Positions 8,332-19,096 of a stretch of 64,000 nucleotides of DNA are shown piece after piece. Source of the stretch: Polaribacter sejongensis (GTDB taxonomy: Bacteria; Bacteroidota; Bacteroidia; Flavobacteriales; Flavobacteriaceae); assembly GCF_038024065.1 (NCBI RefSeq), contig NZ_CP150667.1, positions 1,991,501-2,055,500 on the forward strand. The letters are read 5' to 3'. The first letter of the stretch is position 1. Every line of letters begins with the position of its first letter. Made by a program: the position numbers and the translations under genes. Below the pieces are notes generated by a model. It saw only the letters and a list, made by a program, of their open reading frames with translations, ran no database searches and was not told the origin of the DNA.

Positions 8332-9069
8332 TTAAATGATTAACAAGCCTTCTAAATCTTCTTCTTCCCATCCCCTTCTTACATCGTTTCTAATTAACTT
8401 TGCAGGAAACCCAGCGACTAAGACATTTTCGCCTAATTCACAATAATTTTTAGTTAACAAACTATTTGAGCTGACGGTAAAGTAATCTGGTGTATGTGTT
8501 GACTTCATAATTGACACTCTTCCACCTATGTAATTATATTTTCCAATTTTAATCGAACCAATCTTTTCATAAGTTACATTACTTTTCAAGTCTTTCATTG
8601 AATGAAATGATGTATCAATCAACTGAGATTCATATCCAATTCTAGCAAAATCATCAGTTGTAATTGAATTCATACAAATAATCTTACCATTTGCCCCTAT
8701 CGAAGAAAGGTGCCCCATTTCAAGAACTGCATCATTATTAATATATATTGAATAATCTAATCCTATCTGAACATGACCATTAAACACTATTAACCCTTTT
8801 AATGTTAATTGTGCATTCTTTTTGGATACTTTGAATAATTCATATTTCTGACCAAAACCAATCATTCCAAATTTAATTGGTGCATTTATTTTTACCTTAC
8901 CTTTCGAACATTGAAGTTTTACTTTTCCATAAAAAACAACAGGCATTTTTTTTGCAATTTTAAATGGAAACATTTTAAAATTAAAATAAATAGTTTTCAA
9001 CCAATTTATTGACAAATAAAAGTTGATTTTATTAAATAAATATTTCAATAGTTTAATAATGAAGTTCAT
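8332..9069 (-). CDS. Left-handed beta-helix (hexapeptide repeat) acyltransferase
   Basis: A 245-residue acyltransferase of the LbH superfamily (WcaF/maltose O-acetyltransferase group). The first 35 residues are a basic amphipathic lead. Hexapeptide repeats follow, with degenerate coils around residues 80-150 and a clear late coil YIGGRVSIMK. The C-terminal GENVLVAGFPAKLIRND is the usual CoA-binding end of these enzymes. Probable role is O- or N-acetylation of a sugar in the repeat unit. The ATG follows directly on a run of 7-bp repeats that also holds the stop codon of the flippase gene. Confidence 0.85.
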   Translation of the reverse strand: MNFIIKLLKYLFNKINFYLSINWLKTIYFNFKMFPFKIAKKMPVVFYGKVKLQCSKGKVKINAPIKFGMIGFGQKYELFKVSKKNAQLTLKGLIVFNGHVQIGLDYSIYINNDAVLEMGHLSSIGANGKIICMNSITTDDFARIGYESQLIDTSFHSMKDLKSNVTYEKIGSIKIGKYNYIGGRVSIMKSTHTPDYFTVSSNSLLTKNYCELGENVLVAGFPAKLIRNDVRRGWEEEDLEGLLII

Positions 9070-9098
9070 TGTTATTTGTTATTTGTTATTTGTTATTT
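9070..9098 (-). repeat. 7-bp tandem repeat at the wzx / acyltransferase junction
   Basis: On the plus strand the unit TTGTTAT recurs about four times without gaps. On the coding strand this reads as AACAAAT units. The wzx stop codon (9086-9088) lies inside the array and the acyltransferase ATG follows it at once, so the array is both the 3' end of wzx and the whole ribosome-binding region of the next gene. A change of one unit (7 bp) would alter the last residues of the flippase and the spacing between the genes. Confidence 0.8.
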
Positions 9099-10576
9099 TT
9101 TAAACGGAAATTTAAATAGATTTCTCTAAGATTTAACCTTTTATCCAGTTCTATAAAAGAATAATAAATAGTAGATATAATTAATACTATTCCTAAAGGA
9201 TATCTGAGTAAACTGTTAGACACAAATGTAATACCTAATCCAATAAAGCAAATTAATAAACTGACTAAAAAAACTTTATAGAAAGTAAGGCTAAAGAAAA
9301 AAGAATATTTATACTTCGTTATAAGCAACATACCTAATAGATGAATAATATAATTTACAATAAATGAGATCCCAATCCCAGTTAATCCCATAAGCATATA
9401 ACCACTTATATTACATAAAAAAAAAACAGTATTAAAACCTACCCCTGTTTTAATAAGTAATTTACTCTCTCCTTTTGCCAATAATATAAAACCCAATGAC
9501 CAAGAAACTGCTCTAAAAGCCATACCTATAATCGCAAAATTTACCATTTGTACAATAGGTATAAACTTATTACTGTAAAAAAATTGAATTAATAAAGGTG
9601 AGAAAATTAAAAAAACAACAATTATTGGGATCAAAATTAAAAGTACAATAAGAGCTTGTTGCTCTACAGTTTCTTGAACTAAATCATTATCTGTATTTAC
9701 AGCTGATAACCTCGGATAATAATCTGTAGCCATAGCCGAAAAAATCATTCCAACATATGTATTGACAATTGCAAAACCAGCTGTATACAAACCAACAATC
9801 TCAACCCCGCCTATATTACTTATGTAAATTTTCAAGAAATAGGCAGCAATCATAGTAAATATCCCATTCAAACTAATCATTACGCCCATTTCAACCATAG
9901 CTTTACTTTCCTCAATTGTTTTCTTCCCTGATACCTTAACTTTAGTTACGTCAACTTTAAGAGAAAAATATTTTGACACAATTAAACTTATTATAGATGT
10001 AATTATAATTGCAGGAACAATAGCATCAATCTGAAAAAAATAATACAAGGGAACAGTAACAATTAATCCAATTAAACTACCCACTAAATTTGCTTTAGCC
10101 AGATAATTAATTTTATGCAAACCCTGCAATATAACTAACTGACCAGTTGTTAATTGTTTAAACAGTAAAGTAATAGAAATCCACATAAAGGCAAAAGAAA
10201 ATTCAGAATTACCAAATGTAAATTCACTAAGCCATGAAGAAAAAATAAGAGTAATAATAGTTCCTAAAATTCCTGTAAACCAAATTAACTTCCTTAAAAC
10301 AGTTACAATTGTTCCTACCTTATTAACATCTCCACTAGCATTCGCAACAGAAACATTTTTAATAGCACTTGTATTTAGACCCAAATTTGTAAAAGCCCCT
10401 ATCAAATCTAATGTAGAATTTAATAAAGAAGCAATACCCATCCCTGTAGTACCAAGAAATATTGCTATAAATTTAGACCGAACTATCTGAATAATAATTT
10501 GAAAAAATTGAACACCTCCTAAAATTGAAGTAGCTTTAACCACACCACGATAAGACGATTTCTTTACGTCTTGCAT
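9086..10576 (-). CDS. wzx: Wzx-type O-antigen flippase (MOP superfamily)
   Basis: An inner-membrane protein of 496 residues with about 12-14 transmembrane segments, related to RfbX/WzxE. Family signs are the N-terminal VKATSILGGVQFFQIIIQIV, then FIAIFLGTTGMGIASLLNS, and the middle GVEIVGLYTAGFAI followed by DYYPRLSAV. It should move the undecaprenyl-linked repeat unit to the periplasm before polymerisation. Its start overlaps the stop of the aminotransferase gene by one base (TAATG), showing translational coupling. Its presence, with no ABC transporter seen, points to Wzx/Wzy-dependent assembly. Confidence 0.92.
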   Translation of the reverse strand: MQDVKKSSYRGVVKATSILGGVQFFQIIIQIVRSKFIAIFLGTTGMGIASLLNSTLDLIGAFTNLGLNTSAIKNVSVANASGDVNKVGTIVTVLRKLIWFTGILGTIITLIFSSWLSEFTFGNSEFSFAFMWISITLLFKQLTTGQLVILQGLHKINYLAKANLVGSLIGLIVTVPLYYFFQIDAIVPAIIITSIISLIVSKYFSLKVDVTKVKVSGKKTIEESKAMVEMGVMISLNGIFTMIAAYFLKIYISNIGGVEIVGLYTAGFAIVNTYVGMIFSAMATDYYPRLSAVNTDNDLVQETVEQQALIVLLILIPIIVVFLIFSPLLIQFFYSNKFIPIVQMVNFAIIGMAFRAVSWSLGFILLAKGESKLLIKTGVGFNTVFFLCNISGYMLMGLTGIGISFIVNYIIHLLGMLLITKYKYSFFFSLTFYKVFLVSLLICFIGLGITFVSNSLLRYPLGIVLIISTIYYSFIELDKRLNLREIYLNFRLKNNK

Positions 10577-13899: not shown

Positions 13900-14946
13900 T
13901 TATTTATATTGTTTGTTATAATATTTTTCGTATTCTCCACTTACAATACGATCCATCCATTCAGTATTATTTAAATACCAATCAATCGTCTTAGATAATC
14001 CTTGCTCAAAAGTAACTGAAGGCTCCCACCCCAATTCTTTATTGATTTTGGAAGCATCTATGGCATAACGTAAATCGTGACCTGGTCTATCTTTTACATA
14101 AGTAATTAACTGCTCACTTTCCCCTTCTATTCTATTCAACTTTTGATCCATTTGCTTACACAACAATTTAATCAAATCAATATTCTGCCATTCATTAAAC
14201 CCACCAATATTATAGGTTTCTTCATTCTTTCCATTGCGAAAAATCAATTCAATTGCAATAGCATGATCTACAACATACAACCAATCACGAGTATATTTTC
14301 CATCTCCATAAACCGGTAATGCTTTTTTATTGATGATATTATTAATAAATAATGGAATTAATTTCTCAGGAAACTGATTCGCACCATAATTATTAGAACA
14401 ATTAGAAATTACATAAGGTAATCCGTAAGTTTCTCCATAAGCTCTAACAAAGTGATCTGAACTTGCCTTAGATGCAGAATATGGTGAATTAGGATCATAA
14501 GAAGTAGTTTCTGTAAACAAACCTTCACTTCCCAAAGTTCCATAAACCTCATCTGTACTTACATGATAGAAAAGTTTATTCTTCCAATCTTTATTCCATA
14601 AATTTTTAAATGAATTTAAAAGATTCATTGTTCCTAAAATATTGGTCTTTGCAAAAGCTAAAGGGTCTGTTATAGATCTATCTACATGAGACTCCGCTGC
14701 CAAGTGAATAACTGAATCAAATTTATATTTTTGAAAAATACTTTCAATAAATGATTCATTGGTTATATCACCCTTTAAAAAAGTATAATTCTCCTTATTT
14801 TCTATGTCATTTAAATTTTCTAAATTACCTGCATAAGTTAAAGCATCTAGATTATAAATATGATACTCAGGATACTTGTTTACAAAAAGACGCACAACAT
14901 GCGATCCTATGAAACCAGCTCCACCAGTTATTAATACCTTTTTCAT
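13900..14946 (-). CDS. rmlB: dTDP-glucose 4,6-dehydratase
   Basis: An extended short-chain dehydrogenase of 348 residues converting dTDP-glucose to dTDP-4-keto-6-deoxyglucose. It has the NAD-binding [10 protein letters not shown] at the N-terminus, the dehydratase block STDEVYG near residue 131, and the catalytic [10 protein letters not shown] (YxxxK) near 157. It precedes rmlA by one base. rmlC and rmlD are absent here, so the product is probably used for the 3-amino sugar branch (FdtA-B-C) and not for rhamnose, unless rmlCD lie elsewhere. Confidence 0.95.
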
Positions 14947-15035
14947 ACTTTTTTAATTTTTATTTTATTTTATTTAATAAAAAACCATTCTAAAAAGAAA
15001 TAATTTATTTCTACAAAAATGATATAATATATAAC

Positions 15036-16163
15036 CTACTCAGCTTGTTTTAAAATTTCATGTCCTGCTTTTAGTAGAACAACATCTTTTTTCATAATTG
15101 CAACATCCCCTTGCATCATATCTTTTACCAAAGAAGCTAAGTCATGCTCTGGTACCCATCCTAATTTATTTTTTGCTTTAGAAGGGTCTCCAATTAATAA
15201 ATCCACTTCTGTTGGACGGAAATAAGAAGGATCTACAGATAAGACTTCTTTTCCAATTTCTATTTGAAAATCTTTATGATTACATGCTGTAACATATGCT
15301 TTTTCTTCAACTCCTTCTCCTTTAAATTCTACCTCGATACCAACTTCCTTAAAAGCTAAACGTACAAAATCTCTTACTGTTGTAGTTACTCCTGTAGCAA
15401 TTACCCAATCTTCTGGTGTATCAGCTTGTAAGATCATCCACATCATACGAACATAATCTTTTGCATGTCCCCAATCTCTTTTTGCTTCTAAGTTTCCTAA
15501 AAACACTTTTTCTTGTAAGCCTAATGCAATTTTTGCCACAGCACGTGTAATTTTTCTTGTTACAAAAGTTTCCCCTCTTCTTGGAGATTCATGGTTGAAT
15601 AAAATACCATTACAAGCAAACATGTCATACGCTTCACGATAGTTTTTAGTGATCCAAAAACCGTATATTTTTGCTACTCCATAAGGAGAACGAGGGTAAA
15701 AAGGAGACAGTTCATCATAAAAACCTCTTTCATTTTTATTCTCTGGCATACCTCCATATAGTTCTGAAGTAGACGCTTGATAAATTCTTGTTTTCTTTTC
15801 TAAACCTAAAATTCTTACTGCTTCTAAAATACGTAAAGTACCTAATCCATCAACATTACCAACATACTCTGGAGTATCAAAAGAAACGGCAACATGAGAC
15901 ATTGCTCCTAAATTATAAATTTCATCTGGTTGACATTCTTGAATGATACGCGTTAAATTCATCGCATCGGTTAAATCACCATAGTGTAATTTTAATCTTT
16001 GATCAGGATCGTGTGGATCTTGGTACAAGTGATCTATTCTGTTTGTATTAAACAAAGATGATCTTCTCTTGATACCATGTACGATATATCCTTTTTCTAA
16101 TAATAATTCTGCTAAATATGAGCCATCTTGCCCTGTAATCCCTGTAATTAATGCTACTTTCAT
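15036..16163 (-). CDS. gmd: GDP-mannose 4,6-dehydratase
   Basis: A 375-residue extended SDR making GDP-4-keto-6-deoxymannose, first step to GDP-L-fucose. Signs are [15 protein letters not shown] at the N-terminus, [12 protein letters not shown], the active-site [18 protein letters not shown] (YxxxK), and the Gmd-specific [17 protein letters not shown]. Family length is normal. It is separated from fcl by a repeat-rich spacer, a four-helix-bundle gene and a second repeat spacer, an odd arrangement because gmd and fcl usually touch. Confidence 0.96.
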
Positions 16164-16278
16164 GTTCGTTTTTCTTTATTCGTGGTTCGTTGGTCGTTGG
16201 TCGTTTTTCGTTGGTCGTTTTTCGATACTCGGTGGACGATAAATGATAAACGGTGGACGAAAATCGAAGAACGATTTT
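16164..16278. repeat. TCGTT/GGACGA-rich repeat spacer, copy 1
   Basis: About 115 bp of short degenerate units between gmd and the four-helix-bundle gene. The left half is made of TCGTT, GGTCG and TTTTTCG units, the right half of ACGATAAA and GGTGGACGA units, and the two halves are roughly complementary (TCGTTTTTCG against CGAAGAACGA), so the spacer can fold on itself. A 34-bp core at 16227-16260 matches 16679-16712 in copy 2 at 29 of 34 positions. The CG-rich units stand out against the AT-rich genome. Confidence 0.85.
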
Positions 16279-16623
16279 TCACTTTAGTGATTTTATTAAT
16301 TTATACAGCATCATCTTAATTCTCGTGCAAAGATCAAATAATTTCACATATTCTTCATTAGAAATGTATCCTAAATCTTTTGCCAAAAATAATTGATAAT
16401 TAGCTTCTTCCAAAGAGCCTTTCGCAATATATAAAAATTGAATAAACTCCTTTTTATACTGCCTCCCTTGCCCTTCTATTATATTTGTTGGAACACTACT
16501 AGAACTTCTTCTTACTTGATTGGTTAACCCAAATTTTTCTGATGAAGGAAAGTTATTTGAAACTTGGTATACATCAAGGGTTAATTGATGTGCTAGTTTC
16601 CAAACTTCTAGTTTACATTCCAT
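16279..16623 (-). CDS. Four-helix-bundle protein (23S rRNA intervening-sequence protein / Avd-like family)
   Basis: A 114-residue all-alpha protein. It matches the family first described in 23S rRNA intervening sequences by the layout: WKLAHQLTLDVYQVSNNFP, then QVRRSSSSVPTNIIEG with the near-invariant NIxEG, then YIAKGSLEEANYQL. Relatives include Avd, the accessory protein of diversity-generating retroelements. Members are often seen singly among nucleotide-sugar genes of Bacteroidota, with no settled function. Here it sits between gmd and fcl on the same strand and is flanked on both sides by similar, self-complementary repeat spacers. RNA binding is a possible role by family analogy only. 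Confidence 0.88.
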   Translation of the reverse strand: MECKLEVWKLAHQLTLDVYQVSNNFPSSEKFGLTNQVRRSSSSVPTNIIEGQGRQYKKEFIQFLYIAKGSLEEANYQLFLAKDLGYISNEEYVKLFDLCTRIKMMLYKLIKSLK

Positions 16624-16736
16624 ATTTTTTTTCGTTATTCGTGTTTCGTTGGACGTTGTTCGTGTTTCGTTGTTCGTTACTCGATGGACGGTAAACGGTA
16701 AACGATGGACGATTTTCGTTGGACGATAAACGATTT
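16624..16736. repeat. TCGTT/GGACGA-rich repeat spacer, copy 2
   Basis: About 113 bp between the four-helix-bundle gene and fcl, in the same orientation as copy 1, so the gene is flanked by imperfect direct repeats. It starts with TCGTTATTCG-like units and ends with GGACGATAAACGATTTTT. The 34-bp core at 16679-16712 differs from copy 1 at only five positions, four of them purine transitions. It can also fold back on itself. Confidence 0.85.
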
Positions 16737-17687
16737 TTAAAGCTTGACTTCTTTAAAATTTTCTATATTTTCTAAAAACCAAGTATACGTTTTTTCAATT
16801 CCTTGTTTCAAATCAACTTTATGCTTCCATCCTAAGTTGTGCATTTTAGAAATGTCCATCAGTTTTCTTGGCGTTCCGTCTGGTTTATCAGCATCCCAAA
16901 CAATCGTTCCTTGATGCCCTGTTACTTCTTGAATCGTTTCTGCTAATTCTTTTATCGTCAAATCTTCACCTGTACCTATATTGTATAGGTATTCTGGTAA
17001 TTCGTTTTCTAAAGCATATACCACAGCTTCTGCCATGTCATCTACAAACAAAAATTCACGCATTGGCGTTCCGCTTCCCCATAAGGTAACATCTGAATTG
17101 TTATTCATTTTTGCCTCATGAAATTTACGAATCATGGCAGGTAACACATGTGATGACTTTAAATCAAAATTATCATGTGTACCATATAAATTTGTAGGCA
17201 TTAAGCTTACATAATCTTTCTGAAATTGCTTTCTAATTGCCTCACATGCTTTTACACCTGTTATTTTCGCAATCGCATACCATTCATTGGTCGGTTCTAA
17301 AGAATCAGTCAACAAGTATTCTTCTTTTAAAGGCTGTGGAGCAAACTTAGGATAGATACAAGAACTCCCTAAAAATATAAACTTCTCAATTCCAGATTTT
17401 AAAGCACTATCAATTAAATTGTTTTGAATTTGCATATTTTCCATCAAAAATTGATACGGAAAATTATTATTGGCCAAAATACCACCAACCTTTGCAGCTG
17501 CATCAATCACAACTTCAGGTTTTTCTGTTTGATAAAAATCAAGTACAGCTTCCTGATTTTTTAAATCTAAGTCTTTGCTAGATCTGCCTATTAAATTTGT
17601 ATATCCCTTTTTTTCTAAAGTTCTCCACACAGCAGAACCCACCATACCTCTATGACCAGCAATATATATTTTAGTATCTTTTTTCAT
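16737..17687 (-). CDS. fcl: GDP-L-fucose synthase
   Basis: A 316-residue SDR (WcaG family) that epimerises and reduces the Gmd product to GDP-L-fucose. N-terminal YIAGHRGMVGSAVWR binds NADP; GSSCIYP carries the catalytic Ser; WYAIAKITG is the YxxxK block; TNLYGTHDNFD and GSGTPMREFLFVDDMA are family-specific. With gmd it gives the full GDP-mannose to GDP-fucose path. Both flanks are repeat spacers of the TCGTT/GGACGA type. Confidence 0.96.
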   Translation of the reverse strand: MKKDTKIYIAGHRGMVGSAVWRTLEKKGYTNLIGRSSKDLDLKNQEAVLDFYQTEKPEVVIDAAAKVGGILANNNFPYQFLMENMQIQNNLIDSALKSGIEKFIFLGSSCIYPKFAPQPLKEEYLLTDSLEPTNEWYAIAKITGVKACEAIRKQFQKDYVSLMPTNLYGTHDNFDLKSSHVLPAMIRKFHEAKMNNNSDVTLWGSGTPMREFLFVDDMAEAVVYALENELPEYLYNIGTGEDLTIKELAETIQEVTGHQGTIVWDADKPDGTPRKLMDISKMHNLGWKHKVDLKQGIEKTYTWFLENIENFKEVKL

Positions 17688-17689
17688 CT

Positions 17690-17773
17690 TTTTTTTCTTA
17701 TCTGATGTCTCCTTTTTCGACGATCGTTTTTCGTTCGAGCTGTAAACGGATATCGAACATCGGAAATCGGTTT
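17690..17773. repeat. TCGTT/GGACGA-type repeat spacer, degenerate copy 3
   Basis: An 84-bp spacer between fcl and ugd containing TTTTTCGACGATCG, TTTTTCGTTCG, TGTAAACGGATATCG and CGGAAATCGG units. It is clearly of the same kind as the two spacers around the four-helix-bundle gene but has drifted further. No gene lies next to it except fcl and ugd. Confidence 0.65.
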
Positions 17774-19096
17774 TTATTTCCCTATTTGAAAATACTCAAA
17801 TCCTTTTTCTTCTAAATTGAAAGCATTGTACTGATTTCTTCCATCAAAAATAATAGGATTCTTTAATTGTTGCTTTATTTCTACAAAATCTGGAGAACGG
17901 AATTCTTTCCATTCTGTTAATAAAATTAATGCATCCGAACCTTGTAAAACTTCGTACTTAGAACTACAATACGTAATGTTTTTAGCGTCTTTTAAATAAA
18001 ATTCTTTCGCTTCTTCTATCGCTTTAGGATCATAAGCCTTCACTTTTGCACCTCTTTTCTCTAATTCTTTTACAATATAAATAGCTGGAGCCTCTCTCAT
18101 ATCATCGGTACCCGGTTTAAAGGCCAATCCCCATAAACCAAAAGTCATACCTGATAAGTCTTCTCCAAATCGTTTTACAATTTTATGTGCAATCACTAAT
18201 TTCTGAGCATCATTAACATTCTCTACAGACTCGATTAAGTTTGCTTTATAACCGTTTTCTTCTGCAATTTTCTTTAAAGCTTTTACATCTTTAGGAAAAC
18301 AAGAACCTCCATAACCTGCACCTGGATAAATAAAACTATACCCAATACGTTTGTCTGAACCAATACCGATACGCACCATATTTGCATCTGCGCCTACTCT
18401 TTCACAAATATTTGCAATCTCATTCATAAATGAAATTTTTGTCGCTAACATTGTATTTGCAGCATATTTTGTCATTTCTGCAGAACGAATATCCATCGTT
18501 ATAAAACGATCATGGGTTCTAAAGAAAGGAGAATATAATTGCTTCATTAAATCAAAAGCATAGTCAGAATCTGCACCGATAACTACTCTATCAGGCTTCA
18601 TAAAATCATCTATAGCTGCTCCTTCTTTTAAAAACTCTGGATTAGAGACAACGCTAAACTCTAAATCTGATTCTCTTTTATCTAATTCTGCCTGAATAGT
18701 TGCTTTTACTTTGTCTGCTGTTCCAATTGGCACTGTAGATTTATCTACTACGATCAATCTTTTCTGCATAGTTTCTCCAATAGACTTTGCGACTGCTAAA
18801 ACATATTGTAAATCTGCAGAGCCATCATCGCCCATTGGGGTACCAACAGCAATAAAAACAATTTCTGCATCACTAATAGCTTCTCCTAGTTTTGTTGTAA
18901 AAAACAAGTTTTTATTCTTTACATTTTTTAAAACCATTTGTTCTAAACCTGGTTCAAAAATAGGAATAATTCCTTCCTCTAATTTTTGAATTTTCTTCTG
19001 ATCTATATCTACACAAGTAACTTTGTTTCCCATTTCTGCGAAACAAGTACCAGATACTAAACCAACATAACCAGAACCAACTATAGCAATATTCAT
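17774..19096 (-). CDS. ugd: UDP-glucose 6-dehydrogenase
   Basis: A 440-residue NAD-dependent dehydrogenase oxidising UDP-glucose twice to UDP-glucuronate. It has NIAIVGSGYVGLVSGTCFA at the N-terminus, VGTPMGDDGSADL, STVPIGTADKV and the catalytic-Cys block GAGYGGSCFPKDV. The central helix TKYAANTMLATKISFMNE and C-terminal domain are complete. UDP-GlcA may be a direct precursor or feed further uronic sugars. The gene is separated from the upstream nucleotidyltransferase by a terminator, so it probably has its own promoter. Confidence 0.96.
   Translation of the reverse strand: MNIAIVGSGYVGLVSGTCFAEMGNKVTCVDIDQKKIQKLEEGIIPIFEPGLEQMVLKNVKNKNLFFTTKLGEAISDAEIVFIAVGTPMGDDGSADLQYVLAVAKSIGETMQKRLIVVDKSTVPIGTADKVKATIQAELDKRESDLEFSVVSNPEFLKEGAAIDDFMKPDRVVIGADSDYAFDLMKQLYSPFFRTHDRFITMDIRSAEMTKYAANTMLATKISFMNEIANICERVGADANMVRIGIGSDKRIGYSFIYPGAGYGGSCFPKDVKALKKIAEENGYKANLIESVENVNDAQKLVIAHKIVKRFGEDLSGMTFGLWGLAFKPGTDDMREAPAIYIVKELEKRGAKVKAYDPKAIEEAKEFYLKDAKNITYCSSKYEVLQGSDALILLTEWKEFRSPDFVEIKQQLKNPIIFDGRNQYNAFNLEEKGFEYFQIGK

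Follow-up and report, generated by a model that had tools for sequence, protein, structure and literature searches.

The closest described systems are the intervening sequences (IVSs) of 23S rRNA that carry an S23p/IVP ORF, and the locus analysed here shares with them the protein family and a transcribed host; complementary ends around the ORF, as in the IVSs, are a trend of the family and less distinct in the window's class. It differs from them in having a protein-coding operon as host and, as ends, arrays of 7- or 8-nt units whose letters depend on the class. REP/RAYT and MITE elements likewise have short palindromic or inverted ends and solo copies; the present element differs in having no transposase, ends given by period rather than by conserved sequence, and no established target duplication. 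The Avd proteins of diversity-generating retroelements (DGRs) are distant profile relatives, but the IVP protein scores below the curated Avd cut-offs and has no reverse-transcriptase tie in the genomes searched.

In excerpts of two papers (PMC4990558, PMC11270868), IVP genes are treated as the ORFs of rRNA IVSs and the function of the IVP/S23 protein is still called unknown; the first of these excerpts describes three GACAGAT heptamers before the ORF of the Coxiella IVS and RNase III cleavage in its stem. Excerpts of PMC3936711 report 18 IVP genes in cas loci as being of interesting function, and a search for DGR-linked immunity, in an excerpt of PMC10053308, counts IVP among the genes it scored. 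TAACTGA and other heptamers near start codons have been described in Beggiatoaceae, Cyanobacteria and some Bacteroidetes (PMC4679880, in part); like the units reported here they are 7-nt intergenic units close to start codons, but that part of the paper names no protein partner, and an exact TAACTGA doublet was found in none of our 201 loci. In open-licence PMC we found no literature joining PF05635 proteins to tandem or heptamer arrays, and a search there on Avd and RNA turned up nothing of use.

Results

The IVP gene and its spacers

The window is a 64,000-nt stretch of Polaribacter sejongensis at 1.99-2.06 Mb of a 4.50-Mb, one-contig source genome that holds nine PF05635 loci, one split into two matches and one with an in-frame stop. 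The features of the host locus are as follows.

17688..17773, minus strand: decayed lone array of the TCGTT type in the ugd-fcl gap (sequence reading and pattern match)
16737..17687, minus strand: fcl-like upstream host gene, GDP-fucose synthase (ORF; name from reading the sequence)
16624..16736, minus strand: 5' spacer, an imperfect 7-nt array with a single CG in each unit, spanning from the fcl stop almost to the IVP start
16279..16623, minus strand: PF05635 (23S_rRNA_IVP) four-helix-bundle gene, 114 aa (ORF call and profile match)
16164..16278, minus strand: 3' spacer, an array of the 5' spacer's class, from the IVP stop to the gmd start
15036..16163, minus strand: gmd-like downstream host gene, GDP-mannose dehydratase (ORF; name from reading the sequence)

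Thus fcl, the IVP ORF and gmd are all on the minus strand. A sequence-only reading of the window had placed a 114-residue gene between gmd and fcl and assigned it to an IVS/Avd-like family; both points hold, as ORF 16279-16623 (-) is located there and its product scores above the cut-offs of PF05635 (E 8.5e-41, 138.9 bits; curated cut-off 33.8) and TIGR02436 (E 8.1e-40, 135.4 bits; cut-off 24). The nearest named relatives of the protein are from Polaribacter. Its residues Q36, R39, S43, N47, E50, R54, S70 and E73 are conserved at 93-100% across 113 sequences, in agreement with GxxRxxxSxxxNxxE, the family motif given in an excerpt of PMC3936711.

The spacer on either side of the IVP gene is 113-115 nt long, and the second half of each is roughly complementary to the first. 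The units run CGTTATT CGTGTTT CGTTGGA ... CGATGGA CGGTAAA CGGTAAA CGATGGA, with CG in nearly all, and a repeat search joins both spacers in a single direct-repeat family whose shifts, 14 and 21 nt, are multiples of 7. The two 34-bp cores that the earlier reading had picked out (16227-16260 and 16679-16712) do agree at 29 of 34 positions in the same orientation, with five differences counted by eye. Its TCGTT/GGTCG and GGACGA/GTAAACG units are present too, as parts of what is in fact one continuous 7-nt array; the strict 7-nt period and the third, decayed array (17688-17773) had been overlooked. With up to two mismatches TCGTTNNTCGTTNNTCGTT has 17 matches in the 64-kb window, against 0.14 expected: 16 in the two spacers and one in the ugd-fcl gap at 17717.

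Each spacer can fold back on itself, as had been claimed, to a modest degree (z -1.69 and -1.72, weakly better than shuffles), and the third array gives z -0.78. Folding of the minus-strand transcript 16740-16160, which the same reading had proposed as a check, gives z -2.99, with none of 100 shuffles equally stable. An Rfam search of 14900-18200 at E up to 1 returned no match. In a CRISPR array, repeats are separated by unique spacers; here the 7-nt units stand head-to-tail with no spacers in between. Nor is the location that of a 23S rRNA IVS, the element lying between fcl and gmd.

Array matches across the source genome

Over the 4.50 Mb, TCGTTNNTCGTTNNTCGTT with up to two mismatches has 23 matches, namely 16 in the spacers, one in the ugd-fcl gap and six isolated ones with two mismatches each. 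The total is uninformative because a backwards control of the same sequence gives 34 matches; all eight matches with zero or one mismatch fall in the two spacers. Judged by pattern search, the TCGTT array is tied to the window's IVP gene in this genome. Its clusters are confined to the IVP gene and, weakly, the adjoining ugd-fcl gap, and so are not spread over the genome without a link to the gene, which supports the proposal that gene and arrays form one module in an operon and not in rRNA.

A single dispersed repeat family was considered and rejected. BLAST with one spacer (E up to 1) recovered itself and the other spacer only, a search that is not sensitive because it missed the decayed third array too, and the other IVP loci of the source genome have different units. 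By eye, repeats are seen in the flanks of most of those loci, with units that include CAGTATT, AATTACG, TTATCGG and GTGTAATT. The idea that one and the same spacer accompanies every such gene does not survive: each PF05635 class has its own letters, and a 7- or 8-nt period is what they have in common. A periodic score of at least 22 (period 6-9) is reached in 10 of 16 flanks of eight own-genome loci, as compared with 6.8% of 162 intergenic gaps; one of the eight, L006, lacks a clear array. Within the 464 kb scanned, the source genome has 15 lag-7 arrays with a score of at least 23, two of them the spacers, and the comparison lags give 15 (lag 9) and 11 (lag 6); since lag 9 equals lag 7, heptads are not in excess genome-wide.

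A shared period across relatives

The spacer observation is real and belongs to a wide pattern. Of 468 confirmed relatives of the window protein we examined the 80 best (L046-L125), which are not a random draw; they come from species genomes that include Bacteroidota, Cyanobacteria, CPR bacteria, an ANME-1 archaeon, Acidobacteriota, Calditrichota and Dehalococcoidia. A 113-locus set joins to these 80 the eight own-genome loci and 25 of 27 loci from related genomes; it leaves out the split gene L009/L010 and the fragments L037 and L045, and keeps duplicates between the two collections such as L021/L063, perhaps the same place. Loci short of flank were dropped, leaving 79 of 80 in the flank pairing and 112 of 113 in the word, period and duplex tests. 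Shuffles for period significance and flank composition kept base composition only.

The array-gene-array anatomy is found across phyla. For these 80 (the best of 468), lag-7 identity is 0.450 over the 120 nt upstream (80 loci) and 0.452 downstream (79 loci), with 0.276 at 1.0-1.6 kb away, and the near-gene peaks recur at 14, 21 and 28. When periods of 4-12 were tested and a score attained in none of 50 shuffles was required, the best period was 7 in 100 of 159 flanks, 8 in 17 and 9 in three, and 39 flanks had no significant array. At a second cut-off, 71 of the best 80 carry one or more significant arrays, 52 of them two; the corresponding counts are 24 and 14 among 25 non-Bacteroidota loci, assigned by organism name with two given just as "bacterium", and 27 and 16 among 33 loci of the source genome and relatives. 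A periodic score of at least 24 is reached by 60% of the 159 flanks vs 1.2% of 162 intergenic gaps, the control gaps being those of the source genome alone. Where a locus has two arrays, the period is the same on both sides in 61 of 64 cases (50 with 7/7, 11 with 8/8).

The letters are class-specific, with some regularities. With upstream arrays as read and downstream arrays reverse-complemented, 48 of 91 non-TCGTT arrays have a GT in fixed phase, vs 25.2 +/- 3.5 for permuted columns, none of 100 permutations reaching 48; the AC excess in the same arrays is 12 vs 5.6. In the non-TCGTT classes G exceeds C in 48 of 53 upstream arrays and C exceeds G in 46 of 59 downstream. IVP pairs with at least 60% protein identity have a mean flank-word cosine of 0.45-0.66 vs 0.26-0.38 for pairs below 60%, and words taken 0.5-0.9 kb from the IVP gene hardly differ between the identity classes. 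The protein-repeat Mantel r is 0.24, with none of 999 permutations as high, and is driven by pairs of at least 60% identity; a general protein-repeat correlation was rejected, r being -0.22 below 60% identity. No rRNA was found near the IVP gene in the 16 of the 80 loci that were checked.

Operon position and orientation

At 94 of the 104 loci (113 examined) for which both neighbours were called, the IVP gene runs in the same direction as the two of them; in a 400-kb sample of the source genome the same holds for 152 of 286 genes and 41 of 69 small genes, all gene calls in this test being longest-ORF calls. Among the matches listed, the window's class lies in the fcl-gmd and ugd-fcl gaps of nucleotide-sugar operons and beside nucleotidyltransferase-like and mannose-1-phosphate-guanylyltransferase-like genes, these names coming from reading the sequences. 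Other IVP elements lie in unrelated operons of one genome, for example at ffh-folD and among trp genes.

Pairing of flanks

The upstream flank scores a mean of 22.3 against the reverse complement of its downstream partner vs 12.9 for swapped partners, with 21 of 79 loci above the 99th percentile; compared directly, the two flanks are also more alike than swapped ones (29.4 vs 14.6; 10 of 79 above the 99th percentile). In 82 of 112 cases the true partner beats those of the five loci closest to it in upstream array (Wilcoxon p 7e-9). Family-wide, the RNA duplex energy is -39.5 vs -24.4 kcal/mol for swaps, and 41 of 112 loci fall below the 5th percentile of swaps. For the window's class the duplex energy is -35.8 vs -34.7 for within-class swaps, no locus-specific excess, and the flanks are self-complementary with weak self-folding (mean z about -1.1 to -1.2; 28 loci). 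RNA structure is thus a trend of the family and is modest at the window's locus, where the RNA-processing role that the earlier reading offered as an alternative is hypothetical.

States of the fcl-gmd and ffh-folD gaps

The same gap can be bare, hold a lone array or hold elements of several classes. We sought fcl in 78 genomes of the genus and found 30 loci, of which 28 were compared (L199, partial, and L200, 59% identical, were left out) and 26 have gmd next to it. Twelve of these 26 junctions are bare (0-16 bp) and one more is 43 bp without an array. A lone TCGTT-type array stands at three: L172 (74 bp), where fcl is 98% identical, L175 (100 bp) and L181 (80 bp, weaker). The window's element class is present at five (the window's own locus, L173, L174, L183 and L197), other PF05635 copies with other repeats at four (L177, broken, and the Pfam-confirmed L178, L186 and L188), and an 87-bp palindromic insert of a different type at one. 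The ugd-fcl gap is short in L172 and L173, which lack the lone array seen there in the window, and contains a full element in L188. The gaps are too short for a target duplication to be defined, and the array ends have no fixed terminal sequence. The comparison of gmd-fcl junctions proposed in the earlier reading therefore yields all of the bare, lone-array and full states which, together with the operon location, support its suggestion of a mobile module inserted in mRNA.

At ffh-folD, 40 genomes were covered and ffh was found upstream in 26 of 30 loci. An L004-class gene with CAGT-type flanks is present in the source genome's own locus, L212, L224 and L230, and is broken in L212 and L224; L227 has CAGT-type ends around an unrecognisable gene. 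Lone CAGT-type repeats occur at L218, L219 and L222, and other lone arrays at L220 and L228. The remaining 16 loci have no such array, including the closest, L203 and L204 (folD 99% and 98%), and about ten of these 16 gaps show a terminator-like hairpin by eye. A hairpin of this kind is kept before the element in L224, L227 and L230 and is missing in the own locus and L212, so that in these two the insertion was not clean.

Age and selection

Nine pairs of fcl-gmd loci were compared by the Nei-Gojobori method, in which the high dS values are saturated. In six of the nine, the dS of the IVP gene is below that of every measured neighbour: 0.16 vs 0.56-0.94 in L173-L174, 0.37 vs 0.67-1.19 in own-L174, 0.77 vs 1.70-1.88 in own-L197, 0.71 vs 1.65-1.93 in L173-L197, 0.85 vs 1.29-1.52 in own-L188 (the L188 copy sits in the ugd-fcl gap) and, mildly, 0.51 vs 0.64-0.79 in own-L173. 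It is not lower in the other three, being about equal in L174-L183, between the neighbours in L183-L197 and higher in own-L183 (1.75 vs 1.03-1.18). At ffh-folD the IVP gene is not younger than its neighbours: its dS matches theirs in own-L212 (62 codons) and exceeds theirs in own-L230. The IVP dN/dS is 0.06-0.07 (own-L173, own-L174), and in the pairs tested the protein is under purifying selection.

Discussion

Our best reading is that the element is an mRNA-borne relative of the rRNA intervening sequences, lying outside rRNA and with ends set by period. That gene and spacers together form one mobile, sense-oriented element, which settles in gaps between co-transcribed genes and is bounded by arrays of period 7 nt (8 nt in some classes), their letters particular to the class, we hold with a probability of about 0.6. 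Counting against mobility, no transposition was observed, a target duplication is not defined and the element encodes no mobility enzyme; the existence of lone arrays without an IVP gene counts against the element reading itself. Also on the negative side are the 39 of 159 flanks with no significant array, the equal numbers of lag-7 and lag-9 arrays in the 464 kb scanned, the lack of locus-specific pairing and the weak self-folding in the window's class, the three of nine fcl-gmd pairs in which the dS of the IVP gene is not lower, and, at ffh-folD, a gene no younger than its neighbours and an insertion that in two genomes was not clean.

The arrays would pair in RNA, across the ORF in many classes and each with itself in the window's class, and where they pair across it the ORF would be carried in the loop that closes a long stem, like the ORF of a 23S rRNA IVS. 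That the period is constant and the letters vary, on either side of a gene in sense orientation, suggests that spacing is what is recognised. Two solved IVP relatives have five chains per entry, one of them named in a reference title in PMC3936711, as excerpted, as an assembly of five four-helix bundles. An IVP ring of five-fold symmetry could bind evenly spaced units of its own transcript, one unit per subunit, which would explain why the period is constrained and the letters are free. Rings of the TRAP type read evenly spaced short RNA units; the IVP ring might do likewise, though it belongs to an unrelated family and would read another period and another motif. Lone arrays may be left by recombination between the two similar arrays, and homologous recombination via conserved host genes may spread the element between related genomes.

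The strongest alternative, which we nevertheless consider unlikely, is a host regulatory module in which the protein binds heptad arrays before start codons and tunes translation or stability, the arrays being operators and not element ends. Arrays that extend to the next gene's start codon and the low dN/dS of 0.06-0.07 would suit it, as would the proposal, in an excerpt of PMC4679880, that TAACTGA heptamers before start codons are sites of a post-transcriptional regulator. What speaks for a mobile element instead is that it occupies a given gap in some related genomes and not in others, recurs in unrelated operons of one genome (ffh-folD, trp genes) and shares its gap with different classes that have other repeats.

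Less probable still, and already disfavoured, is slippage, by which the arrays would be simple repeats tolerated in gaps and the IVP genes ordinary small genes alongside. The strong preference for periods of 7 or 8, equal on both sides, the inverted pairing of the flanks and the rarity of arrays in other gaps of the source genome speak against it; the imperfection and variable length of the arrays and the lone arrays without a gene (e.g. window 9051-9117 and L145 16859-16999) speak for it. We give very little weight to a retroelement-like origin, with the IVP as an Avd-like cofactor of a reverse transcriptase that acts in trans and writes the short units: PF05635 is said to resemble Avd (PMC10053308, in part) and there is distant similarity (bAvd E 4.8e-6, NF033474 E 3.6e-7), but these scores are under the curated cut-offs (27.5 vs 40 and 30.4 vs 80), the one RVT_1 match of the source genome lies at 759 kb, not near the window, and an RVT_1-family enzyme is not required because the single-contig genomes G002 and G009 each have six PF05635 matches and no RVT_1 match.

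A broader form of the element reading is a tentative proposal that we think more doubtful than the element itself. PF05635 proteins would mark a widespread class of RNA-borne elements read by period and not by letters, in which each subunit of a five-fold ring binds a single unit of 7 or 8 nt, often one with a fixed GT, in the arrays on either side of the protein's own ORF in an operon mRNA. Of this class the 23S rRNA IVSs would be the best-known habitat rather than the source, and its remains would include some of the lone heptad arrays found before bacterial genes. A partner sequence of fixed period beside most IVP genes makes a direct binding experiment possible. The IVP genes noted in cas loci and in the search for DGR-linked immunity may be gap passengers rather than parts of those systems, and some of the heptamer repeats in bacterial genomes that still lack an explanation may be due to elements of this kind.

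Additional observations

In the window, a lone heptad array of the AACAAAT type (coding strand) at 9051-9117 occupies a tight gap with no IVP gene and extends to the start codon of ORF 8332-9069. Elsewhere in the source genome, L145 16548-16999 holds a pair of perfect heptad arrays that stand alone, one of AGAGACA and a long one of GAATACT; the latter ends at an ATG and resembles the CAGTATT units of the genome's own ffh-folD element. A decayed IVP gene between the two was looked for and gave no convincing match. A palindromic AATTACG-type array without a gene, at L132 3285-3349, resembles those that flank the split IVP gene L009/L010, and at about 2080-2400 of L018 a split IVP copy lies between trp genes (names by reading) with AATTACG-type flanks.

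In the fcl-gmd gap, the flanks of L177, L186 and L188 look by eye like 6-nt units, GACTTT/AAAGAC, so the period may span 6 to 8 between classes. At L103 2424-2501, in Pleurocapsa, an Rfam match to a group II intron stands directly before the IVP match.
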